Below, piece after piece: positions 19,487 through 35,549 of a stretch of DNA of 49,364 nt. The DNA lies in NCBI GenBank assembly GCA_017482485.1, contig JAFUMV010000122.1, positions 1 through 49,364 on the forward strand, given 5' to 3'. Each line of letters starts with the position of its first letter. Positions within the stretch are counted from its first letter, which is position 1. The notes beneath the pieces were generated by a model. It was not told the origin of the DNA and made no database searches. It saw only the letters and a list, made by a program, of their open reading frames with translations. Made by a program: the position numbers and the translations under genes. Origin of the DNA: Lachnospiraceae bacterium (GTDB taxonomy: Bacteria > Bacillota > Clostridia > Lachnospirales > Lachnospiraceae).

Positions 19487-20737
19487 ATGAAAATCGGTAT
19501 CGTTGGAATGGGCGCTTTTTCGGATGATTTTGTGAAACTGTTCACGCTGCATCCGGATGTGGAAGAGGTTGTGGTGGCAGATCTGGATGAAACCAGAGTG
19601 CAGAAAGCCATGGAAAAGCATCACATCAAAAGAGGCTATACTTCCTATGAAGAATTGTTGGAGAAAGCAGATGATGTGGACAGCATCGCGATTTTTACCC
19701 AGAGACATCTTCACGGCCCCATGATCGTCAAGGCATTAAAGGCCGGAAAGCATGTGTACAGCGCGGTGCCTATCGGCTGCACACTGGAGGAAATCGAAGA
19801 AATCGTGAAGCTGGCGGGAGAAACCAGACAGATCTATATGATGGGCGAAACCTGCTACTATTATCCCTGTGCGATTTACTGCCGGGAAAAATATGCAACG
19901 GGCGAAATGGGCAAATTTGTGTACGGCGAATCCCAGTATTATCACGATATCTGCGAGATGTACGGCGATTATCAGCGCTCCGGCGGCGAACGGTGGCGCA
20001 GAGTGGCGGGCATTCCGCCCATGTTTTATCCCACCCATTCCATCTCCATGCTGTTTTCTGCCATCAATGAGCATGCGGTGAAGGTTTCCTGCATGGGCTA
20101 TCGGGATAATCATGAGGATGATATTTTCGGAGAGGATAAGAACAATTGGGCAAATCCTTTCAGCAATGAAACTGCGATTTTCCAGATGTCCGGCGGCGGC
20201 ATTGCGCGCATCAACGAGTTCCGGCGGGTGGGCATCAACAAGCCTTCTTCCTATATCACCTGTTTTTACGGGGAAAAGGGCGCTTATGAGTGCTCCATCA
20301 CAAACCACAGCTATCAGAGGGGCATTGCCAGCGGTGAGGAACCCTATGTGGAGGATGTGGGCCCGCTGGTGAACACCATCGACTATAATGAAGATCTGAA
20401 AAACGGAACGATGGACATGAGCAAAGATCCCATTTCCATCAAATATATTCAGGGCCCGGCGAAGATTCAGGATTATTCCAGGCTGCCTAAAAGCTTTCGG
20501 GAAACGGTCAGCCGCAATCACTACAACAGCCATCCCTTTTTGGTGGATGATTTCGTGAGAGCGGTCAAGACCGGAAAGCTTCCCCCAAACAACGCCTGGG
20601 AATCCGCAAGATACATGATTCCGGGTCTGATCGCCCACGAATCGGCGCTCAGGGGCGGAGAGCTTTTGGACGTACCGGATCTGGGAGATGCGCCTGTAGA
20701 CTGGGAAAAGCTGACCTTTGAACCCTATGAGGAGTGA
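19487..20737 (+). CDS. Gfo/Idh/MocA-family protein with GH109-like motifs (Gfo1)
   Basis: This 416-residue protein has an N-terminal Rossmann fold (KIGIVGMGAFSDDF, then VVVADLDE). At the place of the family's catalytic EKP lysine it reads HVYSAVPIG, so the lysine is missing. Further on, RSGGERWRRVAGIPPMFYPTHS replaces the usual GG-D-x-G-x-H motif. A YPTH motif together with a V-P in place of E-K-P is what I recall from GH109 NAD-dependent glycosidases, which oxidise C3 and eliminate the aglycone. It is therefore either an NAD-dependent glycoside-cleaving enzyme or a divergent dehydrogenase. It is first in the AraC-2 operon, with GGAGG 9 nt upstream. Confidence 0.85.
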   Translation: MKIGIVGMGAFSDDFVKLFTLHPDVEEVVVADLDETRVQKAMEKHHIKRGYTSYEELLEKADDVDSIAIFTQRHLHGPMIVKALKAGKHVYSAVPIGCTLEEIEEIVKLAGETRQIYMMGETCYYYPCAIYCREKYATGEMGKFVYGESQYYHDICEMYGDYQRSGGERWRRVAGIPPMFYPTHSISMLFSAINEHAVKVSCMGYRDNHEDDIFGEDKNNWANPFSNETAIFQMSGGGIARINEFRRVGINKPSSYITCFYGEKGAYECSITNHSYQRGIASGEEPYVEDVGPLVNTIDYNEDLKNGTMDMSKDPISIKYIQGPAKIQDYSRLPKSFRETVSRNHYNSHPFLVDDFVRAVKTGKLPPNNAWESARYMIPGLIAHESALRGGELLDVPDLGDAPVDWEKLTFEPYEE

Positions 20738-20802: not shown

Positions 20803-21573
20803 ATGAACCTGAGCGTTTGCATCGATCTGATGTATACCTATTGTGATTTTTATGAGCGTTTCGCAGAGGCGGCTGCGGACGGCATCAAAACTGTGGAATT
20901 CTGGAAATGGTCCAATAAGGATCTGGACAGAGTTTGCGCACTTTTGCAGGAAAACGGGCAGCAGGTGTCGATTTTTAACATCGACTGTCAGGATGAACAG
21001 CTGTCTTATGATCTGTCTCGCGGCATTTTGAATGACGGACGCGCGGACGAATTCCTGCGGGCTTTAATAGAGAGTATTCCTGTTTACAAAAGACTGAATG
21101 CGAAAGCCATGATCGTGCTGATCGGTGAACATAAACCCTACAACGAAGAAAATGTGTATAAATGCCTGGAAGCGGCAAAGCCGATTCTGGAGAAGGAAAA
21201 TGTGAACCTGATCGTGGAGCCTTTAAACGCCACGGACCGGGTGGGTTACAGCATGCCTTACGCTGCGCCGGTGCTTGCGCTGATCCAAAAGCTCAACAGC
21301 CCTCACATCAGGATGCTTTATGACATTTACCACCAGAACATGACCGGCGATTTTGATCTGGAAGAGGTGCGAAAAAACATCGGCCTGATCGGACATTTTC
21401 ATGTGGCGGATGTGCCGGGCAGACATGAGCCGGGCACCGGAAACGTGGATTATGTCAGCATCCTGAAACAGATAGATGCCATCTATGACGGGTTTGTGGG
21501 ACTGGAATACCGGGCCACAAAAAAGGATGGAGAAACCTACGGATTTTTAAAGGAGGCAGGATATGGCCTTTAA
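20803..21573 (+). CDS. Hydroxypyruvate isomerase / sugar phosphate isomerase-epimerase family protein
   Basis: This 256-residue AP-endonuclease-2-type TIM barrel has the expected metal ligands: Glu in LIVEPLNATD, Asp in MLYDIYHQN, His in FHVADVPGRHEPGTG, and Glu in FVGLEYR. These features are close to hydroxypyruvate isomerase (Hyi). Related folds also include inosose dehydratase, 3-keto-sugar epimerases and the lyase subunit of C-glycoside deglycosylation. Between two Gfo proteins, the likely job is to isomerise, epimerise or eliminate from a keto intermediate. Its 3' end overlaps the start of Gfo2 by 11 bp, so the two are translationally coupled. Confidence 0.85.
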   Translation: MNLSVCIDLMYTYCDFYERFAEAAADGIKTVEFWKWSNKDLDRVCALLQENGQQVSIFNIDCQDEQLSYDLSRGILNDGRADEFLRALIESIPVYKRLNAKAMIVLIGEHKPYNEENVYKCLEAAKPILEKENVNLIVEPLNATDRVGYSMPYAAPVLALIQKLNSPHIRMLYDIYHQNMTGDFDLEEVRKNIGLIGHFHVADVPGRHEPGTGNVDYVSILKQIDAIYDGFVGLEYRATKKDGETYGFLKEAGYGL

Positions 21574-22645
21574 AGTTTGCATCATCAGCTGCGGCATGAT
21601 TGCCAATGAGGCTCACATTCCTGCCTATCAGCAATTTTCGGAAGATTATGAAATTGTGGCAGTCAGCGATATCAATGAGATGGCGGCGAGGGATACCGCA
21701 GAGCGTCATGGCATTTTACATTATTATACGGATGCAGAAAAAATGCTTACGGAACAGAAGCCGGACGTGGTTTCCGTTTGTGTGCCCAACGCTTTTCACA
21801 AGGAATATACCATAATGGCCCTGCGTCATGGGGCCAATGTTCTGTGCGAAAAACCGCTGGCTTTTTGCCATTCGGATGCGGTGGAGATGTTTGACTGTGC
21901 GAAGCAGGCCGGAAAGGTGCTGATGGCCTGTCAGAGCATGCGCTTTACACCGGACCGGCTTGCCGCAAAGAAATTTATTGACGAAGGCGGCATGGATGAG
22001 ATTTACTATGGCGAACTTTCCAGAATCCGAAGGCGCGGCATTCCCACCTGGGGCACTTTTCATATGAAGAAAATCAGCTGCGGCGGCGCTTTCGTGGACA
22101 TCGGCGTGCACATGCTGGATGCGCTGGTATGGCTCATGGGAAATCCGGCAGTCAGTGCGGTCAGCGGCACCATCATGCAGAACCATAAAAATGAACTTGG
22201 TTCCCTGAAAGGAAGCGGTGCACTCACCGGAAAAGTGCACAACAAGCGGACCTTTGACCCGGATGAGATGGACGTGGAGGACTTTTCCTGCGGCACCATC
22301 ACCTTTGAGACCGGTGCGAAGGTCAGTTTCAAGGTGGCCTGGGCAGCCAACATTCCGGAGGCTTCCGACATCATGCTGGTCAGCAAAAAGGCGGGACTTG
22401 ATCTGCCCTCCGGCAGGATATTGTTCGATGAACGCGGTGAGCGTTTGCTCGAAATGAAAAATTGTCCTTATGATACGCCTTATTTCGGACACATGTATCT
22501 GACAGACAATTTGCGAAAGGTGCTGAAAGGCGAGGCCAATCCCATCGTGATGCCCGAAGAGACGATCAACGTGTCGAAGATTATTGAGATGTTTTATCTG
22601 TCGGCCCGGCTTGGACGGGAGGTTTCGGCGGCGGAGATCGGGTGA
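21563..22645 (+). CDS. Gfo/Idh/MocA-family oxidoreductase (Gfo2)
   Basis: This 360-residue NAD(P)-dependent dehydrogenase has a Rossmann motif CIISCGMIANEAH, the canonical catalytic VLCEKPLAF, and the substrate-domain motif GGAFVDIGVHMLDAL. The RRRGIPTWGTFHMKK segment is shared with Gfo5 (26466-27581) and marks the two as a paralogous pair from different operons. It probably oxidises a secondary hydroxyl of a sugar, glycoside or cyclitol to a ketone, or does the reverse. It is the last gene of the AraC-2 operon; the hairpin at 22738 follows. Confidence 0.92.
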   Translation: MAFKVCIISCGMIANEAHIPAYQQFSEDYEIVAVSDINEMAARDTAERHGILHYYTDAEKMLTEQKPDVVSVCVPNAFHKEYTIMALRHGANVLCEKPLAFCHSDAVEMFDCAKQAGKVLMACQSMRFTPDRLAAKKFIDEGGMDEIYYGELSRIRRRGIPTWGTFHMKKISCGGAFVDIGVHMLDALVWLMGNPAVSAVSGTIMQNHKNELGSLKGSGALTGKVHNKRTFDPDEMDVEDFSCGTITFETGAKVSFKVAWAANIPEASDIMLVSKKAGLDLPSGRILFDERGERLLEMKNCPYDTPYFGHMYLTDNLRKVLKGEANPIVMPEETINVSKIIEMFYLSARLGREVSAAEIG

Positions 22646-24078: not shown

Positions 24079-25173
24079 ATGAGCAAGAAAATATGGAAAG
24101 TAGCGGTGATCGGGTGCGGTATGTTCGCCCATGCGCAGTACCTGCCCAACATCACCAAGGAGACGAATGCGGTGTGTGTGGCTGCAGTGGATATCGTGGT
24201 GGAGAGAGCGCAGGAGGCCTGCGAGAAATACGGCATTCCCAACTGGTACGGAAGCGTTTATGAACTGATTGAAAAATGTGATTTTGATATCGCTATCGAT
24301 GTGACATCCATTCAGGCACATCATGAGATCAATATGGCGATTTTGAATGCGGGCAAGCATCTGATCTCCCAGAAGCCTGCGGCTCCTACCGTGGAGCTTT
24401 TGACAGAGCAGATCGAGCTGGCAAAAGCAAAGAACGTGAAGTTCGTCTGCGTGCCGATTCATCCGATGCGTTATGATTTAAATATCGCAAAGCAGATGAT
24501 CAAGGACGGCACCATCGGCGAGCCCTATTATGCAAAATGTAATTTAAGTCACGGTGGACCGGAATACTTCCAGTACCGCGATGCGGACCCGTCCTGGTTT
24601 TTTGAGCCCGGCGCAGGCGCGCTGGTGGATATGGGCGTTCACGGTCTGCAGATCGTAACGAGCATGTTTGGCCCCGCAAAGGCATTTGCATGTATGGCCA
24701 AGGTGACCACACCGGTGAGAGAGGTTCGCTCCGGCGCTTATGACGGCAAAAAGATTCAGGCGAACAAGATTCCGGATCATTATGTGATCACCCTGGATTA
24801 CGGCGAAGGAAAGATGGCTATGGTAGAAACCGGATTTTCCGAAAAAGCCAGCAGATCTCCCCAGCTGGAAATCTTCGGCGAGCGGGGAACCATTTCCTTT
24901 ACCAAACCTTATATGACAAACCCTGTGCCTGAAGTTTATATGGACTGTCCCGAAAAGGGCATCCGCGGCTGGATTACGCCTGACAGATGGGTGAATCCGC
25001 CCAAGAAGCTGATCAGCCAGTGCTGTTGTTTAAGAGATATCGTGGAAGCGATCGAGAACGACACCACACCGGTGCTGTCACCCGAACATGCCCGTCACGT
25101 GCTGGAGATCATGTGCAAGATTCCGGAAGCGATCGAGACAGGCACAACGATCGCACTTGAAACGACATTCTAA
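24079..25173 (+). CDS. Gfo/Idh/MocA-family oxidoreductase (Gfo3)
   Basis: This 364-residue protein has an N-terminal Rossmann motif VAVIGCGMFAHAQY, the lysine motif in the form LISQKPAAPT (Gln replaces Glu in EKP), and GAGALVDMGVHGLQI in the substrate domain. A CCC run lies near the C-terminus (ISQCCCLRDIV). It is about three quarters identical by eye to Gfo7 (31668-32759), down to the last residues LETTF. It is first gene of the AraC-3 operon, with GGAGG upstream. Activity expected: NAD(P)-dependent oxidation or reduction of a carbohydrate hydroxyl/ketone. Confidence 0.92.
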   Translation: MSKKIWKVAVIGCGMFAHAQYLPNITKETNAVCVAAVDIVVERAQEACEKYGIPNWYGSVYELIEKCDFDIAIDVTSIQAHHEINMAILNAGKHLISQKPAAPTVELLTEQIELAKAKNVKFVCVPIHPMRYDLNIAKQMIKDGTIGEPYYAKCNLSHGGPEYFQYRDADPSWFFEPGAGALVDMGVHGLQIVTSMFGPAKAFACMAKVTTPVREVRSGAYDGKKIQANKIPDHYVITLDYGEGKMAMVETGFSEKASRSPQLEIFGERGTISFTKPYMTNPVPEVYMDCPEKGIRGWITPDRWVNPPKKLISQCCCLRDIVEAIENDTTPVLSPEHARHVLEIMCKIPEAIETGTTIALETTF

Positions 25174-25304: not shown

Positions 25305-26387
25305 ATGAAAAAATTACGCATTGCGCTGATCGGCCTGGAGCACGTACATACCCAGGGCCTCACCAATGATTTTTTGCGCTACCCCGATCTGGTGGAATTT
25401 GTAGGCATGGCAGATGTGCCGCCCTATACAAAGGAAGAGCTTGAGAAGCATGTGGAAATGCATCATCCCAAAAAGATCGAACTCAAATTGTGGGATGACT
25501 ATAAGGAACTGTTAAAGCAGGACATTGACATCGCGCTGATCTGCACCAGCATCGGAAAGCACGCTGCCATCGTGGAAGAGACGCTGGCGATGGGCATTCA
25601 CACTGTGGTGGAAAAGCCCATGGCACTGAAGATGGAAGATGCCAGAAGAATGTACCGCGCTTATAAAAAGAGTACAGCGCAGCTGATCATCAACTGGCCC
25701 ATCGCATGGTTCCCGGGATTTAGAAAGGTAAAGGAGCTGGCGGACAGCGGCGCAGTGGGGGAAATCCACAGAGTGCAGTACAGAAGTCCTTCCACAAGAG
25801 GACCTTACCCGTTAAATAAGTACACTCCCGAAGAAATGTCTCAGATGTGGTGGTACAAGCATGAAGAGGGGGGCGGCTCCATCGGCGATTATGCCGGATA
25901 CGGCTGCGCGCTGACCGCATGGATCACCGGCAAGAAGGCAAAGCGTGTCAGCGGCTTTTCCAAGAACTTTTTCCTGCCCTTCTCCGATGTGGAAGACTAT
26001 TCCGTATTCACCATCGATTTCGGCGACAGCATCGGCCTGATCGAAGGCTCCTGGTCCACCATGAGCAACGGCCAGATTCCCACCGGTCCTGTGGTTTACG
26101 GCTCCGAGGGCGTGATTGTGGCAGACCGCTTCAATCCTGCGGTGAAGGTGTATAAGACCTATATTCCCTATGTGCCCACTCCCGATCCGGAGGAAGTGTA
26201 TGAGACCACACCGATTGAAGATAACATCGCTTTAAATGTGCTCAACTTCCTGTTAAAGGGCGAGCCTCTGCATGAGATGGTGACACCGGAATTCAACATG
26301 CGCGCGGCGGCGATCATGGATGCGGGCAGACGTTCCTGCGAATCCGGACAGATCGAGAACGCGGAAGAACCGTTTCAGATGCATTGA
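25305..26387 (+). CDS. Gfo/Idh/MocA-family oxidoreductase (Gfo4)
   Basis: This 360-residue protein has an N-terminal IALIGLEHVHTQGL, in which the dinucleotide loop is altered from GxGxxG to GLEHVH, and the catalytic VVEKPMALK. The substrate-domain segment is WWYKHEEGGGSIGDYAGYGC, where the usual D-x-G-x-H is replaced by DYAGYGC. Gfo6 shares these peculiarities (GFAHMH, EKPMAV, WWHQEKYGGGVFLDISCYGC), so the two form a paralogous subfamily with probably the same chemistry on related substrates. GGAGG precedes the start. Confidence 0.9.
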   Translation: MKKLRIALIGLEHVHTQGLTNDFLRYPDLVEFVGMADVPPYTKEELEKHVEMHHPKKIELKLWDDYKELLKQDIDIALICTSIGKHAAIVEETLAMGIHTVVEKPMALKMEDARRMYRAYKKSTAQLIINWPIAWFPGFRKVKELADSGAVGEIHRVQYRSPSTRGPYPLNKYTPEEMSQMWWYKHEEGGGSIGDYAGYGCALTAWITGKKAKRVSGFSKNFFLPFSDVEDYSVFTIDFGDSIGLIEGSWSTMSNGQIPTGPVVYGSEGVIVADRFNPAVKVYKTYIPYVPTPDPEEVYETTPIEDNIALNVLNFLLKGEPLHEMVTPEFNMRAAAIMDAGRRSCESGQIENAEEPFQMH

Positions 26388-26465: not shown

Positions 26466-27581
26466 ATGAGTAAACTGAGAGTTGCCATCATCGGCACAGG
26501 TATGATTGCCAACAGTGCACATTTTCCTGCATTGAATATTTTAAGAGACGAAGGCCTTGTGGAAGTGGTGGGCGTAGCTGACATCAGAGAAGAGGTGGCA
26601 GCAGAAACCGCAAAGAGACACAACGTGCCCCATTATTATAAAGATCCCCAGCAGATGTTAGACGAGTTAAAGCCTGATTTTGTTGCGGTATGTACTCCCA
26701 ATGTTTACCACAAGGAGTGGACCATCAAGGCATTGAAGGCCGGCGCGCATGTGGCATGTGAAAAGCCTATGGCGCTGACCGTAGCGGATGCGGAGGAAAT
26801 GTGGAAAACTGCCGAGGAATGCGGCAAAATGCTGTTCCCCTGTCAGTGCATGAGATGGAGAAATTACATGCAGCATTCCAAAAAGCTGGTGGAGAGCGGT
26901 GAACTGGGCGATATTTATTTTTCAGACATCGAATTCATCCGGCGAATCGGTATTCCCACCTGGGGCATGTTCCATATGAAAGAACACAACTACGGCGGAC
27001 CTTTCTGCGACCTGGGTGTACATCTGATCGACTCTCTGTTATGGATCGTGGGAGATAAAAAGGTAAAGGCCGTTTCCGGCAGCTGTTATACAAAGATCGC
27101 AAACCAGGGTGAGGACATTCTGCTGAGCATTGCGGAGAGCGGTGCCTACAGCGGCACATTTACCCCACGTCCCTATGATTACAAAGAATTTAATGTGGAA
27201 GATTTCGCAACAGGTTTCATCCGTCTGGAAGACGGCATGAGCGTGAACTTCAAGTTCTCCTGGGCGATCAATCTGCCCACAACCAATCTGGATATGGTGA
27301 TCTGCGGCGACAAGGGCGGCTTATCCGTGAATAAAGAAAAGCTGTACAGGAACATCGGCAGATATCAGGCGGAATGCGACATGAAGTGGTTCGACAACGG
27401 CGCGTATAAGGGCGTGCCCTTCGAACAGCACAGATATATGTACAGAAACATCATGAATACTCTGGCAGGCAAAGAAGAATATCTGATCAAAAAGCATCAG
27501 AACATCGAAGTGACCAAGGTCATCGAGTGCTTCTATAAGTCTGCGGAGCTTGGCAGAGAAGTGAGCGTGAATGAATTATGA
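26466..27581 (+). CDS. Gfo/Idh/MocA-family oxidoreductase (Gfo5)
   Basis: This 371-residue protein has Rossmann motif VAIIGTGMIANSAHFPA, catalytic VACEKPMALT, and substrate-domain motif GGPFCDLGVHLIDSLLW. The RRIGIPTWGMFHMKE segment is shared with Gfo2 of the AraC-2 operon, its paralogue. All canonical dehydrogenase residues are present, so an NAD(P)-dependent sugar or cyclitol dehydrogenase is likely. Its last codon overlaps the ATG of Gfo6 (ATGA), showing translational coupling. Confidence 0.92.
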   Translation: MSKLRVAIIGTGMIANSAHFPALNILRDEGLVEVVGVADIREEVAAETAKRHNVPHYYKDPQQMLDELKPDFVAVCTPNVYHKEWTIKALKAGAHVACEKPMALTVADAEEMWKTAEECGKMLFPCQCMRWRNYMQHSKKLVESGELGDIYFSDIEFIRRIGIPTWGMFHMKEHNYGGPFCDLGVHLIDSLLWIVGDKKVKAVSGSCYTKIANQGEDILLSIAESGAYSGTFTPRPYDYKEFNVEDFATGFIRLEDGMSVNFKFSWAINLPTTNLDMVICGDKGGLSVNKEKLYRNIGRYQAECDMKWFDNGAYKGVPFEQHRYMYRNIMNTLAGKEEYLIKKHQNIEVTKVIECFYKSAELGREVSVNEL

Positions 27582-28678
27582 TGAGAGCGGTTATTATCGG
27601 ATTTGCACATATGCATGTGAATGAAGTTGCGCTGTATCTTTCCGAACAGCCCGATTTCGAACTGGCAGCGGTTGCTGATGTGGATTCCGGTGTGGAAAAG
27701 GTGCCGGACTATCGCTACACCGGTCAGTGGAATTTAAAAAATGTGCGGGAAAATTACTGCAGCAACGTCTATGAAGACTACACAAAGATGCTGGACGAAG
27801 TAAAACCCGACATGGCGTTCATCCTGACCGAAAACTGCATGAAGCCTGCGGTGGTGGAAGCGTGTGCAAAGCGTAGAGTCAACGTCTGCATCGAAAAGCC
27901 CATGGCGGTGAGTCTTTCCGAAGCGAAAAAAATTCAGGAGACGGTAAAAAAATATGGCATCGAGGCGGTGGTGAACTGGCCTGTTGCATGGCGTCCCTAT
28001 CTGCACAAAATGAAAGCGGCCCTGGACAGCAAAGTGGTGGGAGAGCCCATCAAGCTGCGCTATATCAACGGCCATACAGGCCCTTTGGGCAAGGGCGCAA
28101 AGCACCGCGGCGTGACGGAGAATGCGGAGGAAATGTCCGATGAAATCCGGGCAAAAACCTGGTGGCATCAGGAAAAATACGGCGGCGGTGTATTTCTGGA
28201 CATCAGCTGCTATGGCTGCCTGTTTGCCAAATGGCTGATGGGTGACGGAGAAAAGAGCGTACTTTCCTATGGCGCAAATTTAAATACGCCCTTTGGCGAC
28301 ACTGCGGATAACTTTGCGGCCATCATCAAATATGATGACAGGATGTCCGTGATCGAAGGCACCTGGACCACCCCCAGAGCGGTAATTCCTTCCGGCCCCA
28401 TGGTGCTGTGTACAGAAGGTGTGATTATGTGCACCGGCGGCGCGGAAAATGCGCCGGATGTAAAGGCATATGACATTTACGGAAACGAGATTGCACTGCC
28501 TGACTGTAAAGTACAGGATAAGTATAGGAATATGCCCTGGCACTATGCTAACCACGTAAATACGGGAGAGGAAATCCTGGATATTCTGACCCTGGATAAA
28601 AATGTGGAAATCATGGCAATTCTGGATGCGGTTGTGAAAGCTTCCGAAAGCGGAAAAGAGGAAAAAATAAGTGATTAA
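27578..28678 (+). CDS. Gfo/Idh/MocA-family oxidoreductase (Gfo6)
   Basis: This 366-residue protein is a paralogue of Gfo4. It has the unusual nucleotide loop IIGFAHMHVNEVA, catalytic VCIEKPMAVS, then VNWPVAWRP and WWHQEKYGGGVFLDISCYGC in the substrate domain. The gene is overlapped at both ends: 4 bp with Gfo5 and 8 bp with the radical SAM activase. It is therefore the gene most tightly tied to the glycyl radical enzyme, and its product or substrate may be the radical enzyme's partner metabolite. Confidence 0.9.
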   Translation: MMRAVIIGFAHMHVNEVALYLSEQPDFELAAVADVDSGVEKVPDYRYTGQWNLKNVRENYCSNVYEDYTKMLDEVKPDMAFILTENCMKPAVVEACAKRRVNVCIEKPMAVSLSEAKKIQETVKKYGIEAVVNWPVAWRPYLHKMKAALDSKVVGEPIKLRYINGHTGPLGKGAKHRGVTENAEEMSDEIRAKTWWHQEKYGGGVFLDISCYGCLFAKWLMGDGEKSVLSYGANLNTPFGDTADNFAAIIKYDDRMSVIEGTWTTPRAVIPSGPMVLCTEGVIMCTGGAENAPDVKAYDIYGNEIALPDCKVQDKYRNMPWHYANHVNTGEEILDILTLDKNVEIMAILDAVVKASESGKEEKISD

Positions 28679-29438
28679 CGGAATCGTTGCAGATATCCAG
28701 CGCGCGTCCGTGCATGATGGGCCCGGAATCAGAACTACGGTGTTCTTAAAGGGCTGTCCCCTGCATTGTGCATGGTGTCACAACCCGGAATGCATCGATT
28801 TTAGGCCGCAGGTGATGTATTATCCGGAAAAATGCATTGGCTGCGGCCTTTGTGATAAAGGCTGCTTTTCGGGCGCAAGGGTAATCTGCGGAAAAGAAAT
28901 GAGCGTGCAGGATGTCTTAAAAGAAGTGCTTCTCGACAGAGATTATTACGGCACGGAAGGGGGCATCACGATCTCCGGCGGCGAACCCTTGGCCCAGCGA
29001 CAGTTTGTAAATGCTCTGATCGATGCCTGTAAAAAAGAGAACATTCGCTGCGCGATGGAAACTTCCCTGATTTTTTATGACGAAGAGACTTTTAAAAAGC
29101 TGGATCTTGTCATGGCGGACTTAAAAATCTGGGATAACGAACTTCATAAAAAGTATACAGGTGTGGAAAATGTAAAAATCAAAGAACATTTCCGGCGCTT
29201 AAACGGATTGGGAATACCGATTATCGCCAGAACGCCTGTCATTTCGGAAATTGATCAGCAGATTGCTCAAATTTCAAAATTTTTATCAGAACTTGAAAAT
29301 GTGAAAAAATATGAGCTTCTCCCGTATCACCCGCTGGGGGAATCCAAAAGGGAAGCTTTGGGAATGACTGCAGAAAATTTTACAATTCCTTCTGCAGAAT
29401 ATATGAAGGAGCTTGAAAAGTATGTATTCGTACGCTGA
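28671..29438 (+). CDS. Glycyl radical enzyme activating enzyme (radical SAM)
   Basis: This 255-residue protein has the activase N-terminus VHDGPGIRTTVFLKGCP and the radical SAM cluster motif Cys29-x3-Cys33-x2-Cys36, then ITISGGEPL, which contacts S-adenosylmethionine. A ferredoxin-like insert has four cysteines (55, 58, 61, 65), enough for one extra cluster; many non-PFL activases have eight for two. It should abstract hydrogen from the glycine of the enzyme encoded immediately downstream. The start is GTG inside the 3' end of Gfo6; the 3' end overlaps the start of the next gene by 17 bp. Confidence 0.93.
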   Translation: MINGIVADIQRASVHDGPGIRTTVFLKGCPLHCAWCHNPECIDFRPQVMYYPEKCIGCGLCDKGCFSGARVICGKEMSVQDVLKEVLLDRDYYGTEGGITISGGEPLAQRQFVNALIDACKKENIRCAMETSLIFYDEETFKKLDLVMADLKIWDNELHKKYTGVENVKIKEHFRRLNGLGIPIIARTPVISEIDQQIAQISKFLSELENVKKYELLPYHPLGESKREALGMTAENFTIPSAEYMKELEKYVFVR

Positions 29439-31650
29439 AAGATTAAAGGCGATGCGCGACACAAAGATACGTCATACGCTTGAAAAAAGAAAACAAAATG
29501 GCTATACTGATCTTGATGATTTCGGAACAGTGCCTATTTCGGAAGGATATTGTGTGACGCCCTGGTATAACAGCACAAACGGCAGCTTTTACGGCTATGA
29601 CGGCATGTGCGAGAATTTCTGCAGGGTCATCGATGCACATGAGCCATATATTGATCCCAACGAAATGCTGTGCGGACGCTGGCGTGACATGCTGGTGAAC
29701 TACCGCGGAGATCTTCACTATATGCCTGACTGGCTGAAAAACAATTTAAAAAACCTGGAATTCATCAAAAACGGCGCCACAAATCAGTGGAGCAAGCGCT
29801 GGGATGAGCAGCGTTTCCCGTACGATCATTTAAAACCTCTCCAGGCGAAGTATAACATCACCACGGGCATTGACGGCGATGCCCATTTTGCCTGTGACTA
29901 TCGCATCGGTTTTGAACTGGGATTTGGCGGATTTTTAGAGAAAATCGAAAAATACCGGGCCATCAATCCGGATAAGCAAGCATTTTATGATGCGGAAGAG
30001 CGCTGCGTGAAGGCGATCATCGCTTTTATTCAGAGACATATCGACAGGCTTTCTGTCATGATCGAAGAAGAGTCGGATGAGCTGGTGAAAGATAACCTGA
30101 TCACCATGAAACGGACCTGTGAAAATGTCCGCTTAAATCCGCCCGCAACCTTTCGGGAAGCCTGTCAGTGGACTGCATTTTTCAACTGCGCCTCCCGCAT
30201 TTACACCAGAGACGGTGCAGGATTCCAGCTGGACGGCCTTTTGTATCCCTACTATATAAAAGATGTTGCGGACGGCATTCTGGATGATGAAACCGCGAAG
30301 TTTCTGATTGCCAACCTGCTTTTGATCGACCCCCATTATTATCAGATTTCCGGTGTGAATGAAAACGATGAGGATATGACGAATCCTCTTTCCTGGCTGA
30401 TTTTGGAGGCGGCGGATTCCATCAATATCGCCTGCAATCTGACCGTGCGGGTTCATGAAAACTGCGACAGGCAGTTTCAGAAAAAAGCGGTTTATTATCT
30501 GCTGAAAAATAAAAACGGCTGGCCCCGCTTTGCCAACGATAAGGCCCTGGCAGAAGGCTATATGAGAAACGGTATTGACAAAAAGACCGCAAGAGAGCGC
30601 ATTGCCGTAGGCTGCAACTGGATGTGCGTGCCCGGCAGGGAATATCCCATGAATGATCTGGTCAAGGTCAATGTGGCCAAGGTGCTGGAGGAGGCCCTAA
30701 AGGACCTTCGCACAGAGATGGACGCGGGAAGTGCCTGCTCCACAGAGCGTCTTTTTGAGCTTTATGAGAAGCATTTGAAATGCGCGGTGGCAGTGACTGC
30801 AGAAGGTATCAATCTGCATCTGGATCATGCCTGGGAAGTGACGCCGGAACTGATCATGAACCTGATGATGAAAAATACGCTGGAACGGGGCGAAGACATC
30901 ACCCAGTGTGCTGAGCTTTATACGGTGGGCATTGACGGCGCCGGTCTTGCCGTTGTGGCCGATTCCTTCGGCGCCCTGGAAGCGAGAGTGGAACAGGAAA
31001 AGCTGCTGACCTGGGAAGAAATGTTTGCAGCGCTGGACAATGATTTTGCAGATGAGCGCACGCGTCTGATGATGAACATCGCTCCCAGATACTGTCAGGG
31101 CGGCACCGTTTCCGATGCCTGGGCAAAGCGCATGACCGACAGCTGGGTGAAAATCGTAAAATCCCAGCCCATGCCCAAAGGCAGACAGCTGATTCCCGGC
31201 TGGTTTTCCTGGTCCCGTACCATTGAATACGGCTCCAGGGTGGGTGCGACCCCCAACGGAAGAAGGGCGGGAGAACCGATTTCCCATGGCGCAAATCCGA
31301 ACCCCCATTTTCGGGCGGACGGTGCGCCTACCGCCCAGGCAAACGGCATTGCCTCCGTACAGTGCGGCTATGGCAATACGGCTCCTTTGCAGCTGGAGTT
31401 TGACCCGAAGCTGGCGGCGGATGAAAAGGGCGCAGAGATTGTGCTGAATCTGATTGAGTCCCACTTTAAACAGGGAGGAACGCTGATCAATATCAACGTG
31501 CTGGATGGAGAAAAGCTGTTGGCGGCCAATGAAAATCCTGATCTTTATCCGGATCTGGTGGTTCGGGTGACCGGATTTACCGCATATTTTGCCAGCCTTT
31601 CCCCGAAATTCAGGCAGCTGGTTGTAGACCGCTTTTTACAGGGAATTTAA
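29422..31650 (+). CDS. Glycyl radical enzyme of unassigned function (PFL-like superfamily)
   Basis: This 742-residue protein has an N-terminal PFL-type domain and a C-terminal glycyl radical domain. The radical glycine is Gly718 in RVTGFTAYFASLS, with Phe in place of the usual Tyr of RVxGY. The catalytic thiyl cysteine aligns with Cys398 in AVGCNWMCVPGREYPMND. Where dehydratases such as those for glycerol, propanediol, hydroxyproline and choline have G-C-x-E, this protein has G-C-N-W, so the general-base glutamate is missing; a second cysteine, Cys402, lies close by. The ATG at 29422 has AAGGAG at a good distance; the TTG at 29413 does not. The reaction is unknown; context suggests a sugar-derived or cyclitol-derived substrate. 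Confidence 0.93.
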   Translation: MYSYAERLKAMRDTKIRHTLEKRKQNGYTDLDDFGTVPISEGYCVTPWYNSTNGSFYGYDGMCENFCRVIDAHEPYIDPNEMLCGRWRDMLVNYRGDLHYMPDWLKNNLKNLEFIKNGATNQWSKRWDEQRFPYDHLKPLQAKYNITTGIDGDAHFACDYRIGFELGFGGFLEKIEKYRAINPDKQAFYDAEERCVKAIIAFIQRHIDRLSVMIEEESDELVKDNLITMKRTCENVRLNPPATFREACQWTAFFNCASRIYTRDGAGFQLDGLLYPYYIKDVADGILDDETAKFLIANLLLIDPHYYQISGVNENDEDMTNPLSWLILEAADSINIACNLTVRVHENCDRQFQKKAVYYLLKNKNGWPRFANDKALAEGYMRNGIDKKTARERIAVGCNWMCVPGREYPMNDLVKVNVAKVLEEALKDLRTEMDAGSACSTERLFELYEKHLKCAVAVTAEGINLHLDHAWEVTPELIMNLMMKNTLERGEDITQCAELYTVGIDGAGLAVVADSFGALEARVEQEKLLTWEEMFAALDNDFADERTRLMMNIAPRYCQGGTVSDAWAKRMTDSWVKIVKSQPMPKGRQLIPGWFSWSRTIEYGSRVGATPNGRRAGEPISHGANPNPHFRADGAPTAQANGIASVQCGYGNTAPLQLEFDPKLAADEKGAEIVLNLIESHFKQGGTLININVLDGEKLLAANENPDLYPDLVVRVTGFTAYFASLSPKFRQLVVDRFLQGI

Positions 31651-31667: not shown

Positions 31668-32759
31668 ATGAAAAAGATATGGAAAGTGGCGGTGATCGGC
31701 TGCGGCAGTTTTGCAAATGCCCAGTATCTTCCCAATATCCGCAAGGAGGCCAATGCCGAGCTTGTGGCAGCGGTGGATATTGTGATTGAGCGGGCGCAGA
31801 AAGCCTGCGAAAAATATGATATTCCTGCGTACTTTGGCAGCGTGGAAGAGCTGATTGCAAACTGTGATTTTGAGATTGCCATCGATGCAGCGTCCATTCA
31901 GGCACATCATGAAATCAATATGGCTGTTTTAAAGGCCGGAAAGCATCTGATTTCCCAAAAGCCTGCGGCACCCACTGTGGAGCTTTTGACGGAGCAGATC
32001 GAACTAGCAAAAAAGAAAAACGTAAAGTTTGTCTGTGTACCGATTCATCCCATGAGATATGATTTAAATACCGCAAAACAGTGGATTGCGGACGGAGTGA
32101 TCGGCAACGCATATTATTTAAAGACCGTTTATACCCATGGCGGTCCGGAGTATTTTCAATATCGGGATGCAGATCCGTCCTGGTTTTATGAACCGGGGGC
32201 GGGAGCGCTGGTGGACATGGGCGTGCACGCTCTGCAGGTGGCCACAACGATTTTCGGCCCCGCGAAGAAAGTGTCATGCACTGCAAAGGTGACAACACCG
32301 ATGCGCATGGTACGTTCCGGCGCCTATGACGGCAAGCTGATCCGGACAGATCAGATTCCGGATCAGTATGTCATCACACTGGATTTCGGCGGTGAGAAAA
32401 TGGCTCTGATCGATACCGGATTTTCGGAAAAAGCAAAAAATTCCCCCTATCTGGAAATTTTCGGTGAGAAGGGAACCATTTCTTTTACAGAGTTTTATTT
32501 GAATAATCCCATGCCTGATTTATATATCGATTATCCCGAAAAGGGAATCCGGGGCTGGATGAAACCGATGGAAGGGGCAAAACCCTGCAAAAAAATACAT
32601 AGTCAGTGCTGTTGTTTAAAAGATATCGTGGATGCGATTGAAAATGATGCGAAGCCTGTTTTGTCGCCGGAGCATGCCCGGCATGTGCTGGAAATCATGT
32701 GTAAGATTCCACAGGCAATTACAGAAGGAAGAACTGTGGAACTGGAAACCACATTCTGA
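31668..32759 (+). CDS. Gfo/Idh/MocA-family oxidoreductase (Gfo7)
   Basis: This 363-residue protein is a close paralogue of Gfo3, with the same unusual LISQKPAAPT in place of EKP, the same IQAHHEINMA segment, GAGALVDMGVHALQV, and the CCC run (HSQCCCLKDIV). It begins 17 bp after the glycyl radical enzyme with GGAGAGG. The high similarity suggests a recent duplication with the activase/radical gene pair lying between the copies. A role before or after the radical step is likely. Confidence 0.92.
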   Translation: MKKIWKVAVIGCGSFANAQYLPNIRKEANAELVAAVDIVIERAQKACEKYDIPAYFGSVEELIANCDFEIAIDAASIQAHHEINMAVLKAGKHLISQKPAAPTVELLTEQIELAKKKNVKFVCVPIHPMRYDLNTAKQWIADGVIGNAYYLKTVYTHGGPEYFQYRDADPSWFYEPGAGALVDMGVHALQVATTIFGPAKKVSCTAKVTTPMRMVRSGAYDGKLIRTDQIPDQYVITLDFGGEKMALIDTGFSEKAKNSPYLEIFGEKGTISFTEFYLNNPMPDLYIDYPEKGIRGWMKPMEGAKPCKKIHSQCCCLKDIVDAIENDAKPVLSPEHARHVLEIMCKIPQAITEGRTVELETTF

Positions 32760-32817: not shown

Positions 32818-32847
32818 TTTGGGCAGCATTGATAAAGGAGAATGGAC

Positions 32848-33897
32848 ATGAAGAAAAAAATAGCAGTGATCGGATACGGCGGACAGGGCGGCTGGCACTG
32901 TAAGCAGATTTTAAAAAGTGATGTAGCAGAACTTGCCGGAATTTATGATATTAACCCGGCACGCGGTCAGCTTGCAAAAGAGGACAACATTCATGTATAT
33001 GAGAGCGCTGACGCGCTTTTGAAAGATACCGATATCGATGCGGTAGTGGTTGCAACCCCCAATGACAGCCACAAAGAACTGGTGATCCGGGCGCTCAATG
33101 CCGGCAAAAATGTAATCTGTGAAAAACCGGTAGAGGTATCTGTGGAGGCTTTTGATGAAATGTGTGCAGCCGCAGAGCGTGCAGGAAAGCTGTTCACCGT
33201 CCATCAGAACAGAAGATGGGACGTGGATTTCCTTGCAATGAAGCAGATCATCGGAAGCGGGCAGATCGGTGATGTGATAAGAATCGAATCCAGAATTCAC
33301 GGTTCCAGAGGAATTCCCAGCGACTGGAGAGGAACAAAGGCTCAGGGCGGCGGCATGATTCTGGACTGGGGCGTGCATCTGATTGACCAGGTTCTGCAGC
33401 TTTTTGAGAAGGACAAAATTCAGAAAGTTTATTGCAATACCACCAATATTACCAACAAAGAGGTGGATGACGGTTTCAGACTGAATCTGTATTTTGAGAA
33501 TGGAAAAACGGCATATATTGAAGTCGGAACCTATAATTTCCTGGCGATGCCCAGATTCTATCTGCAGTGTGAAAACGGAAGTGCTCTGATCAGCGACTGG
33601 ACGAAAAAAGCCCATGTGGCAAAATTAAAAGCCTGGAATGAAAAGGATGTGCTGCCCGTGCAGACCGCAGCAGGTATCACAAAGACCATGGCACCCAGAG
33701 ATGAGGTGACCCTGGATGAATATGATATCGAAAGACCGTTAAGTGATGTACATGATTTTTATCGGAATTTCTGCGCAGCGCTGGACGGAAAAGAAGAAAT
33801 GCTGATCACGCATAAGCAGGTGAGAAGAGTCCTTCGGGTGATGGAGCTGGCTTTTGAATCATCAGAACAGGGACAGGCAGTTGACTGTAATGTGTAA
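32848..33897 (+). CDS. Gfo/Idh/MocA-family oxidoreductase (Gfo8)
   Basis: This 349-residue protein has Rossmann motif IAVIGYGGQGGWH, catalytic VICEKPVEVS, and substrate-domain motif GGGMILDWGVHLIDQ. It has no close paralogue in the window. The second ATG (32848) is used because AAGGAG lies 7 nt upstream; the one at 32842 is too close. All canonical residues are present, so it should be an active NAD(P)-dependent carbohydrate dehydrogenase. It is followed after 19 bp by the cupin gene. Confidence 0.9.
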   Translation: MKKKIAVIGYGGQGGWHCKQILKSDVAELAGIYDINPARGQLAKEDNIHVYESADALLKDTDIDAVVVATPNDSHKELVIRALNAGKNVICEKPVEVSVEAFDEMCAAAERAGKLFTVHQNRRWDVDFLAMKQIIGSGQIGDVIRIESRIHGSRGIPSDWRGTKAQGGGMILDWGVHLIDQVLQLFEKDKIQKVYCNTTNITNKEVDDGFRLNLYFENGKTAYIEVGTYNFLAMPRFYLQCENGSALISDWTKKAHVAKLKAWNEKDVLPVQTAAGITKTMAPRDEVTLDEYDIERPLSDVHDFYRNFCAALDGKEEMLITHKQVRRVLRVMELAFESSEQGQAVDCNV

Positions 33898-33916: not shown

Positions 33917-34342
33917 ATGACGGACCAATCTGCAGATCAAAAGGCCGCTTGTATGAATGCGGATATGACAGGATACGCGGAAAACGAACTGGAAATATAC
34001 AGCTACGAAGGCGACGGTTATAAGCCGATGATTTCCTTTGGTGACTGGAGGGTGGCATTTTTAAGACATGCGGATCGTTTTGATAAGAATCGTGTGGAAA
34101 AAATGGAACGCCATATGTTGACCGATGAAGTGTTTGTACTTCTTTTTGGAGAAGCATTCCTGATTTTGGGAGAAGATGAAAAAGTAGTACGCATGAAGAA
34201 AAATATGCTTTATAATGTAAAAAAAGCGGTTTGGCATGCTGTTTGTGTCAGTGAAGATGCGCAGGTTCTGATTGTGGAAAATGATAATACCGGTGCTCAG
34301 AACACCGAATACAGAAAATTGCGCAGTAAAGTCAGTGCGTGA
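33917..34342 (+). CDS. Small cupin-like protein
   Basis: This 141-residue protein has a single cupin-like beta-barrel: RHMLTDEVFVLLFGEAFLIL resembles cupin motif 1 (histidine followed by glutamate), and KKAVWHAVCVSEDAQVLIVE resembles motif 2 with one histidine. Such proteins bind a metal and act as isomerases, epimerases or lactone-processing enzymes. Its place between Gfo8 and an FAD oxidoreductase supports an auxiliary isomerase role. It could also be a non-catalytic binding protein. GGAGGAAGG lies upstream. Confidence 0.7.
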   Translation: MTDQSADQKAACMNADMTGYAENELEIYSYEGDGYKPMISFGDWRVAFLRHADRFDKNRVEKMERHMLTDEVFVLLFGEAFLILGEDEKVVRMKKNMLYNVKKAVWHAVCVSEDAQVLIVENDNTGAQNTEYRKLRSKVSA

Positions 34343-34364
34343 TAGAATTGCGGAGGTAGAGAAA

Positions 34365-35549
34365 ATGGATTTAAGAGGTAAGGAGCCCATCAATAAAGGG
34401 CGCTATGATGTAATTGTTGTCGGCGGTGGAATTGCCGGCGTGGCAGCAGCTGTTTCGGCAGCAAGAAACAAAGCAAAGACTCTTCTGATTGAAAAGAGTG
34501 TAAACCTGGGCGGCCTGGCAACCACCGGTCTGATTTCCTGGTATGAGCCGCTGTGCGATGGACAGGGAAAACAGATGATCGGCGGCATTTCAGAAGAGCT
34601 GATCAAGCTGTCTGTAGCCTATGGTCTTGACAATCTGGCGAAGAGCTGGGGCGGAAGCAGACCCGATCAGAAAAATCCGGAAAGATACTGCACCTTCTTT
34701 TCTCCGACAATCTTCAGCATTGCGTTGGATGATTATGTGCTGAAAAACGGTGTTGAACTTCGTTTTGATACTTTAGCTACTTATCCTGTAATGGATGGCA
34801 AAAAATGTACCGGCGTGGTAGTGGAAAGCGTAAACGGCAGAGAATATTTTGAGGCAGCTGCTGTGGTGGATGCCACAGGCGATGCTTCCGTGATGGACCG
34901 GGCCGGTGTTCCCACTGTGCTGGGAAAGAATTTCATGTCCTTTGTGGCACATTATTATGACACGGATGATGCACAAAAGCTGGCGGAAACGAGAGATACC
35001 AGACTTTTTAGAAAATGGATGTCAGTTGGCGCCGATCTGGAAGGAAATGGGCAGCCCGAAGGCATGAAGTTTTTTGCAGAAGGTACGGCTGAAGAACTGA
35101 CGGAGTACATGATTATCGGAAAACAGAAGCTCTTTGAAAGAATCAAAGCAAAAGGCAAGAACAATTTTGACATCACCACGCTTCCTTATATGCCGCAGTT
35201 TCGTACCATCCGACGCATTGCAGGAAGATGTGATTTCCCGGCAATTGACGGAAAGACGTATGAAGATTCCATTGGCTGGTGCGGTGATTTCAGACCGAAG
35301 GGAATTGGAAAACATTATCAGATTCCTTTTTCGTCCATGTATCATGAAGACTTTGAGAACCTTGTGGCAGCAGGAAGAATCATTTCCGCACCTCAGGGAG
35401 ACGGATGGGAAGTGGCCCGTGTCATTCCTGTCTGCGGCCTGACCGGTGAAGTGGCCGGAAAAGCAGCGGCACTGTGTGCGCAAAAACAGATCAGCATGGA
35501 TCAGATCAGAAAAGAATATATGGATCAAATCAGATGTCCCGAAGTTTAA
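34365..35549 (+). CDS. FAD-dependent oxidoreductase (FAD_oxidored family)
   Basis: This 394-residue protein has an N-terminal dinucleotide motif YDVIVVGGGIAGVAAAVSAARN, then GGLATTGLISWYEPLCDG, typical of the FAD-dependent oxidoreductases often found in sugar and cyclitol clusters. A second motif VVDATGDASVMDRAG and a C-terminal GDGWEVARVIP complete the FAD site. The ATG at 34365 follows GGAGG; the longer frame from 34272 overlaps the cupin gene. It is the last gene of the AraC-3 operon; a strong terminator follows. The electron acceptor in an anaerobe is unknown. Confidence 0.88.
   Translation: MDLRGKEPINKGRYDVIVVGGGIAGVAAAVSAARNKAKTLLIEKSVNLGGLATTGLISWYEPLCDGQGKQMIGGISEELIKLSVAYGLDNLAKSWGGSRPDQKNPERYCTFFSPTIFSIALDDYVLKNGVELRFDTLATYPVMDGKKCTGVVVESVNGREYFEAAAVVDATGDASVMDRAGVPTVLGKNFMSFVAHYYDTDDAQKLAETRDTRLFRKWMSVGADLEGNGQPEGMKFFAEGTAEELTEYMIIGKQKLFERIKAKGKNNFDITTLPYMPQFRTIRRIAGRCDFPAIDGKTYEDSIGWCGDFRPKGIGKHYQIPFSSMYHEDFENLVAAGRIISAPQGDGWEVARVIPVCGLTGEVAGKAAALCAQKQISMDQIRKEYMDQIRCPEV

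Follow-up and report, generated by a model that had tools for sequence, protein, structure and literature searches.

A clade of glycyl radical enzymes, marked by Trp400 and Glu407 and found in many bacterial phyla, that probably acts on sugars

The contig JAFUMV010000122.1 of a Lachnospiraceae bacterium (assembly GCA_017482485.1), analyzed over its whole length of 49,364 nt and called the window here, encodes a glycyl radical enzyme (GRE) with a tryptophan, Trp400, two residues after its catalytic cysteine. We found that this enzyme belongs to a GRE clade that extends over many phyla, is marked by Trp400 and Glu407, and has no characterized member in the libraries searched. The clade, termed GCxW after its cysteine motif, probably acts on sugars. 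We tentatively propose that it represents a functionally new GRE branch, reaching from Clostridia to Planctomycetes, Chloroflexi, and Bacteroidota, which would cleave bonds of unphosphorylated sugar rings by radical chemistry, possibly through the radical deglycosylation of 3-keto-glycosides, with its base moved from position Cys+2 to Cys+9. The gene and its key elements are as follows.

29422..31650, forward strand: GCxW GRE of 742 amino acids, with key residues His155, Cys398, Trp400, Glu407, Asp412, and Gly718 (Pfam domains, alignment, and codon check).
30613..30657, forward strand: Cys loop, Cys398 to Asp412, with Cys398, Trp400, Cys402 (variable), Glu407, and Asp412 (codons and alignment).
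31573..31575, forward strand: GGA codon of Gly718, the predicted radical site, within VRVTGFTAYF (codon check and alignment).

The open reading frame is intact from the ATG at 29422 to the stop codon at 31650. A program-made list of reading frames begins the gene at TTG 29413, but we take ATG 29422 as the start, because an AAGGAG at 29406-29411 is located 10 nt upstream of this ATG and only 1 nt upstream of the TTG. GREs are oxygen-sensitive radical enzymes, and the window protein is a member of their superfamily: its PFL-like (E = 2.9e-92, 310.8 bits, cut-off 24.3) and Gly_radical (E = 2.4e-13, 51 bits, cut-off 22.2) Pfam domains both exceed their cut-offs, the Gly and Cys motifs are present, and a radical SAM activase is encoded next to it. 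The codons confirm the positions that a first-pass annotation of the window had given for Cys398 (TGC, 30613-30615), Trp400 (TGG, 30619-30621), and Gly718; Cys402 is encoded by TGC at 30625-30627. None of the 12 NCBIfam models listed for the protein reaches its own cut-off, with 268.6 of 678.2 bits for the subfamily model TIGR01774 and 206.8 of 1000 for the best equivalog. The nearest solved structure in a single-sequence search of the PDB is glycerol dehydratase (E = 6.6e-51), and a family profile places PflD first (4.4e-93) and glycerol dehydratase second. Neither search returned a close relative or any match closer than these two enzymes, suggesting that the PDB copy searched contains no member of the clade. 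We found no description of a GCxW GRE in the open-licence PMC literature, a scope outside which most subscription papers lie. The NCBIfam and PDB results agree with the view of the first-pass annotation that the reaction of this GRE is not a known one, and it is plausible, judging from sequence, that the enzyme performs undescribed chemistry.

A CXE motif in the Cys loop defines the eliminase class of GREs (PMC8473560, PMC7077986), and its glutamate is important in the known eliminases (PMC7077986, PMC6453916), which need it: the E470Q variant of IslA is inactive (PMC8473560). The window enzyme contains C-N-W instead. A genome scan keyed to two peptide patterns, neither of them in the Cys loop, found 254 relatives, of which we retained the best 80. 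Cys398, Trp400, and Gly718 are each present in 81/81 aligned sequences (the window and the 80 scan loci). As the scan ignored the Cys loop, the tryptophan cannot be put down to chance or to an assembly error. An earlier alignment used 20 of these 81 core sequences plus others. The joint alignment has 166 rows, extended by GREs, partly with different motifs, that were drawn from whole genomes of the window's class and family; it contains partial sequences and genes reached twice via two collections, with unread bases at the Gly loop of one sequence (L127). The position of Trp400 is occupied by Trp in 119 rows, by Glu in 44, and by Val, Leu, and Asp in one each. Because the 119 rows were picked for Trp, its presence in 119/119 is true by construction, and the independent support comes from the 81/81 count and from the tree described below.

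Within the 119 Trp rows, Cys398, Glu407, and Asp412 are invariant (119 each), His155, Asp159, and Gly718 are found in 118 with one gap each, Thr717 in 117, and Arg393 in 114. At position 407, Glu occurs in only 3 of the 47 non-Trp rows (8 gaps); of these rows, 12 have Asp412, 2 have Thr717, and 43 have His155. Loss of the glutamate at Cys+2 is thus accompanied by a glutamate at Cys+9, and the base may have shifted position instead of being lost. Residues beyond the Cys loop can reach the pocket, as Tyr450 of HypD, 16 residues past the cysteine, binds substrate (PMC7077986). The second cysteine of the loop, Cys402, for which the first-pass annotation had envisaged a role, is not conserved (43/81 scan-set sequences and 61/119 Trp rows, with Ala, Ser, or Gly elsewhere), and we rejected it as a functional residue. 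GREs lacking the CXE glutamate also occur outside the clade, with GCNL (L138), GCVV (L158), and GCVD (L165) motifs, the latter two grouping in the tree.

With the CXE eliminases (glycerol and propanediol dehydratase, CutC, HypD, IslA, HpsG) the window enzyme shares the PFL-like and Gly_radical domains, the Cys and Gly loops, and a His155-type histidine; it differs in having the invariant Glu407 and Asp412 instead of the CXE glutamate and in scoring far below the cut-offs of the listed NCBIfam equivalogs. It could be a diol dehydratase of the ordinary kind, with Trp400 as a silent replacement, given that His155 is kept as in most GREs and that Asp412 aligns with an Asp of glycerol dehydratase, presumably its substrate ligand Asp447. 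A silent change would drift, however, whereas Trp400 is constant in all 81 scan-set sequences over more than seven phylum-level groups and is joined by an invariant Glu407, which makes this explanation very improbable.

We calculated a maximum likelihood tree by a quick method from 81 rows, with the motif columns 397-408 removed; three of 84 rows had been dropped, two as incomplete and one as a tandem copy. One branch separates 37 Trp rows from 44 others (SH-aLRT 99). Together with the scan-set count, this branch confirms the Glu-to-Trp change pointed out by the first-pass annotation and shows that it characterizes a clade. The Trp side splits deeply into GC[NH]W, which includes the window, and GCQW (L094, L095, L096, and L126). 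Escherichia coli PflD (L170) and YbiW (L169) are located on the non-Trp side (SH-aLRT 99), and the window enzyme does not fall inside their part of the tree.

The scan record titles name Clostridia, Lachnospiraceae, Oscillospiraceae, Planctomycetota, Verrucomicrobia, Lentisphaerae, Chloroflexi, Spirochaetes, Armatimonadetes, Poribacteria, Paenibacillus, and Flammeovirga, covering more than seven phylum-level groups, and 21 of the 80 name a hoofed-herbivore gut site. In a sample of the class, 30/391 genomes have a GRE match at E 1e-120 or better, and GCxW is found in all 30, at one locus each. Among genomes of the window's own family, 8/299 match at E 1e-50, six with GCxW and two with GCVE. The phylum sample yields 3/398 genomes at E 1e-120, the window's genome and two new ones with GCNW and GCHW motifs. 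A degenerate-DNA scan of viral contigs returned no match. The window's genome encodes another GRE, with a GCQE motif, on contig C143. Elsewhere, we noted four GCQE GRE reading frames, some partial, on one 7.5 kb stretch (L161, G398 contig 69), and a GCSW relative with internal stop codons (L005/L098, G205) that seems frameshifted in mid-gene, either by an assembly error or because the gene is broken.

Directly upstream of the GRE gene lie three genes that recur in other genomes.

26466..27581, forward strand: Gfo/Idh/MocA oxidoreductase of cluster c2, DgpA-like, with EKP and D-x3-H motifs (PDB search and cluster alignment).
27578..28678, forward strand: Gfo/Idh/MocA oxidoreductase of cluster c3, with EKP and D-x3-Y motifs (Pfam and cluster alignment).
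28671..29438, forward strand: radical SAM activating enzyme (TIGR02494, 256.7 bits, cut-off 174.35).

The activase contains a CX3CX2C motif (C29-C33-C36) and one further CX2CX2CX3C set, and the 3' end of its gene overlaps the GRE start. We compared 83 neighbourhoods, those of the 80 scan loci, of two plasmid loci, and of the window, with genes called by a simple longest-reading-frame method. The activase cluster is present in 63/83, followed in frequency by c2 in 32 and c3 in 30. Across 82 loci, c2 is found three genes before the GRE in 22, c3 two genes before it in 26, and the activase one gene before it in 55. The same operon occurs in a Lentisphaerae record (L085), where c2, c3, activase, and GRE are 42, 35, 44, and 44% identical to their window counterparts. 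In the class sample, 16/381 genomes have a c2 match at E 1e-70 or better, and 15 of these 16 also have a GCxW GRE (Fisher p = 8e-18, calculated with N = 381 although the GRE sample comprises 391 genomes, and only a guide as genomes are not independent). The c2 gene is located within about 3.1 kb of the GRE match in 11 of the 16 and on a different contig in four; one genome has no GCxW match. The link to Gfo/Idh/MocA genes drawn by the first-pass annotation is therefore real and strong. The survey of homologous neighbourhoods that it had called for reveals the conserved c2-c3-activase-GRE operon, with sugar isomerases, glycosidases, and importers appearing elsewhere.

The c2 protein is DgpA-like: its PDB matches are DgpA (194 bits) and a second DgpA, DgpA1 (188), followed by the next solved protein at 91 bits, and its cluster retains EKP in 37/37 and D-x3-H in 36/37 members. 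DgpA-type enzymes oxidize C- and O-glycosides at C3 (PMC8563793, PMC11239390), and c2 may do likewise, judged by its likeness to DgpA. Of the sugar- or cyclitol-derived substrate suggested by the first-pass annotation, the genomic context points to the sugar; the cyclitol is not favoured, as c2 is closest to DgpA, a glycoside 3-dehydrogenase, although inositol 2-dehydrogenase, far below its cut-off, is the top NCBIfam model for c2. A sulfosugar substrate was considered as well. The c3 cluster keeps EKP and has Tyr in place of the catalytic His in 43/43 members, a replacement that we take to be the one in the C3-ketoreductase KijD10. The window c3 protein is distant from any solved structure, and the protein encoded at 25305-26387 likewise belongs to the c3 subfamily.

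These features would suit a pathway in which oxidation comes first: c2 would make a 3-keto-glycoside, the GRE would cleave its C1 bond in a radical deglycosylation, and c3 would reduce the 3-keto sugar. The 3-ketone would acidify the 2-OH and stabilize a C2 radical, such that the CXE glutamate would not be needed. The C3 specificity of DgpA-type enzymes (PMC11239390, PMC8563793), the c3 tyrosine, and the co-occurrence of c2 and GRE across genomes are in line with this order of events. The DgpA-DgpBC and levoglucosan (LgdA-C) 3-keto pathways likewise combine, within a single gene cluster, a DgpA-like Gfo/Idh/MocA protein with a sugar-isomerase-like TIM barrel. However, known 3-keto-glycosides are split without radicals, by beta-elimination in LgdB1 and by a beta-elimination-like step in DgpBC, and the term 'glycyl radical' has no occurrence in three papers on these pathways. 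What a GRE would add is not obvious, c2 is missing from half of the class-sample genomes with GCxW, and we thus regard oxidation first as unlikely.

The PflD and YbiW enzymes offer another comparison, since they share the GRE fold and a sugar-derived substrate, PflD being the best profile match in the PDB and having Asp412 in common with the GCxW GRE. PflD cleaves 1,5-anhydromannitol-6-phosphate to 1-deoxyfructose-6-phosphate, and both enzymes convert 1,5-anhydrohexitol 6-phosphates into this product (review PMC12441222). A related ring-opening lyase would use its thiyl radical to abstract the C2 hydrogen of a 1,5-anhydro sugar or a C-glycoside, upon which the C1-O5 bond breaks; C-glycosides are substituted 1,5-anhydrohexitols, and c2 is DgpA-like. 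Yet PflD and YbiW retain the CXE glutamate (GCVE and GCIE), are found across the tree from GCxW, and act on phosphorylated substrates, and the position of Glu407 is a Thr in PflD. The phosphotransferase system (PTS) genes adjoining pflD have no counterpart among the identified GCxW neighbours, which are a part of all neighbours: a family scan of 113 neighbour proteins (109 of 164 neighbours and four of locus L188) gave 144 families, the first 25 of which contain no PTS genes. Such a lyase appears quite unlikely.

Outside the c2-c3 operon, the company of the GRE varies. In L188, a ROK regulator, a CUT2 permease, a sugar ABC ATPase, and a ribose-type binding protein precede activase and GRE, and a CUT2 permease, an ABC ATPase, and a binding protein adjoin the GRE in L096 of the GCQW branch. 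Flammeovirga and Persicobacter plasmids encode activase, GRE, a small cupin, and a GH47 enzyme, with a sodium symporter nearby on both and with GH130 and a sulfatase in Flammeovirga. A GH63/MGH1-like glycosidase immediately precedes the activase in Paenibacillus (L055), and GH38 is found in L050 (a weak match) and L175. MPI-like, AGE-like, and xylose-isomerase-like (TIM-barrel) proteins, that is sugar isomerases and epimerases, are recurrent neighbours. These importers, isomerases, and glycosidases make an unphosphorylated sugar the favoured substrate. Cupin-like, DUF386, or RhaM-domain proteins adjoin the GRE in several loci; that they are mutarotases supplying one anomer is only a guess. A D-lyxose/D-mannose isomerase and a PfkB-type kinase (the latter by sequence reading) are encoded close to the two GCxW GREs of a single genome (L012 and L094). 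We also observed a xylose-isomerase-like TIM barrel fused to a Gfo/Idh/MocA oxidoreductase near activase and GRE (L066 5683-7611 and relatives, cluster c33). Near GCQW GREs, L-rhamnose mutarotase domains form fusions, in L094 with a protein that weakly matches GDSL lipase and in L171 with a beta-helix protein. Uroporphyrinogen-decarboxylase-like proteins are located beside Chloroflexi GREs (L075 and L084), their family accounting for 4/113 scanned neighbours.

The recurring isomerases, and the short L188 operon of importer, activase, and GRE, which suggests that one enzyme may suffice, would also fit a non-eliminase: a C-C cleaving enzyme, or a radical epimerase or isomerase of a monosaccharide that feeds central metabolism directly. 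GCxW lacks the CXE base, as do pyruvate formate-lyase and the fumarate-adding X-succinate synthases of the same superfamily. Cys398 is flanked by Gly and Asn, however, and does not form the Cys-Cys pair that is a feature of pyruvate formate-lyase; the PFL model TIGR01255 scores far below its cut-off (67.8 of 994.2 bits), and PFL (5.7e-31) and TutD (6.8e-36) are much weaker profile matches than PflD. No conserved second thiol beside Cys398 could return hydrogen with inversion, given the variability of Cys402, and a non-eliminase thus seems rather unlikely.

Our tentative proposal of sugar ring cleavage would proceed as follows. A catalytically competent GCxW GRE would act on an unphosphorylated sugar ring, either a free monosaccharide or a simple glycoside. 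By analogy to the family, the activase would form the Gly718 radical, and Cys398 would become the thiyl. The thiyl would take a ring C-H hydrogen, and the neighbouring C-O bond would break, yielding a keto-deoxy or keto-anhydro sugar. Trp400 most likely would form an aromatic wall for the pyranose where other enzymes have the glutamate, and His155, Glu407, and Asp412, constant in the clade, would assume the proton transfer of the lost CXE residue; that the clade cleaves a sugar-ring C-O bond in this manner is an idea we hold with more doubt than confidence. The upstream pair of DgpA-like c2 and D-x3-Y c3 would make or consume a C3-keto form, which the known specificity of DgpA suggests on either the product or the substrate side, and the GRE would then most likely work next to C3. 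Our observations are the clade, its residue swap, the operon, and the co-occurrence across genomes; the substrate class, the reaction, and the order of steps are inferred. A ketone made by the GRE could act as an electron sink, as ketones do in other GRE fermentations.

Several points weigh against this proposal. That Glu407, Asp412, and Trp400 face the substrate is a prediction, and the need of known eliminases for the CXE glutamate (IslA E470Q) speaks against an ordinary elimination. For c2, the top-scoring NCBIfam model is inositol 2-dehydrogenase, although far below its cut-off (89.5 of 355 bits). Only 15/30 GCxW genomes contain c2 at E 1e-70, which leaves part of the clade outside the C3 link. 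Neighbourhoods vary by lineage, which makes several substrates likely, and the substrate is probably not the same in all lineages. GCxW GREs are rare (6/299 genomes of the window's own family and 3/398 in the phylum sample). We rejected the D-lyxose/D-mannose isomerase as a general partner: only 3/44 genomes carrying it have a GCxW GRE (p = 0.70), and the window's genome has no match to it.

The wider surroundings of the GRE gene contain further oxidoreductases.

19487..20737, forward strand: Gfo/Idh/MocA N-terminal domain protein, cluster c4 (clustering).
20803..21573, forward strand: xylose-isomerase-like TIM barrel (AP_endonuc_2), cluster c5 (clustering and homology).
21563..22645, forward strand: second c2-type Gfo/Idh/MocA oxidoreductase, 43% identical to the first (clustering).
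24079..25173, forward strand: Gfo/Idh/MocA oxidoreductase, cluster c6 (Pfam and clustering).
25305..26387, forward strand: second c3-type Gfo/Idh/MocA oxidoreductase (Pfam and clustering).
31668..32759, forward strand: Gfo/Idh/MocA oxidoreductase, cluster c6, downstream of the GRE (Pfam and clustering).
32842..33897, forward strand: Gfo/Idh/MocA oxidoreductase (Pfam and clustering).
33917..34342, forward strand: small cupin-like protein with no Pfam match (homology).
34272..35549, forward strand: FAD-dependent oxidoreductase (PF12831; Pfam), its cluster in 8/83 neighbourhoods.

The C-terminal part of the 19487-20737 protein matches no Pfam family, and its cluster is present in 19/83 neighbourhoods. 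The cupin-like protein is conserved beside GCxW GREs in Lachnospiraceae and marine Bacteroidota, with homologues directly after the GRE in L012, L051, L092, and L093.

To our knowledge, few GRE reactions are known, and several of them have proved important in anaerobic metabolism. The clade keeps the radical machinery, swaps the residue on which the known eliminases depend, and has a further invariant acid shortly after it; it is thus a direct test of the extent to which GRE chemistry relies on the CXE glutamate. The genomic context of its members points to a step in the breakdown of sugars or glycosides, in bacteria of the herbivore gut and of the environment, that is named by no NCBIfam model.

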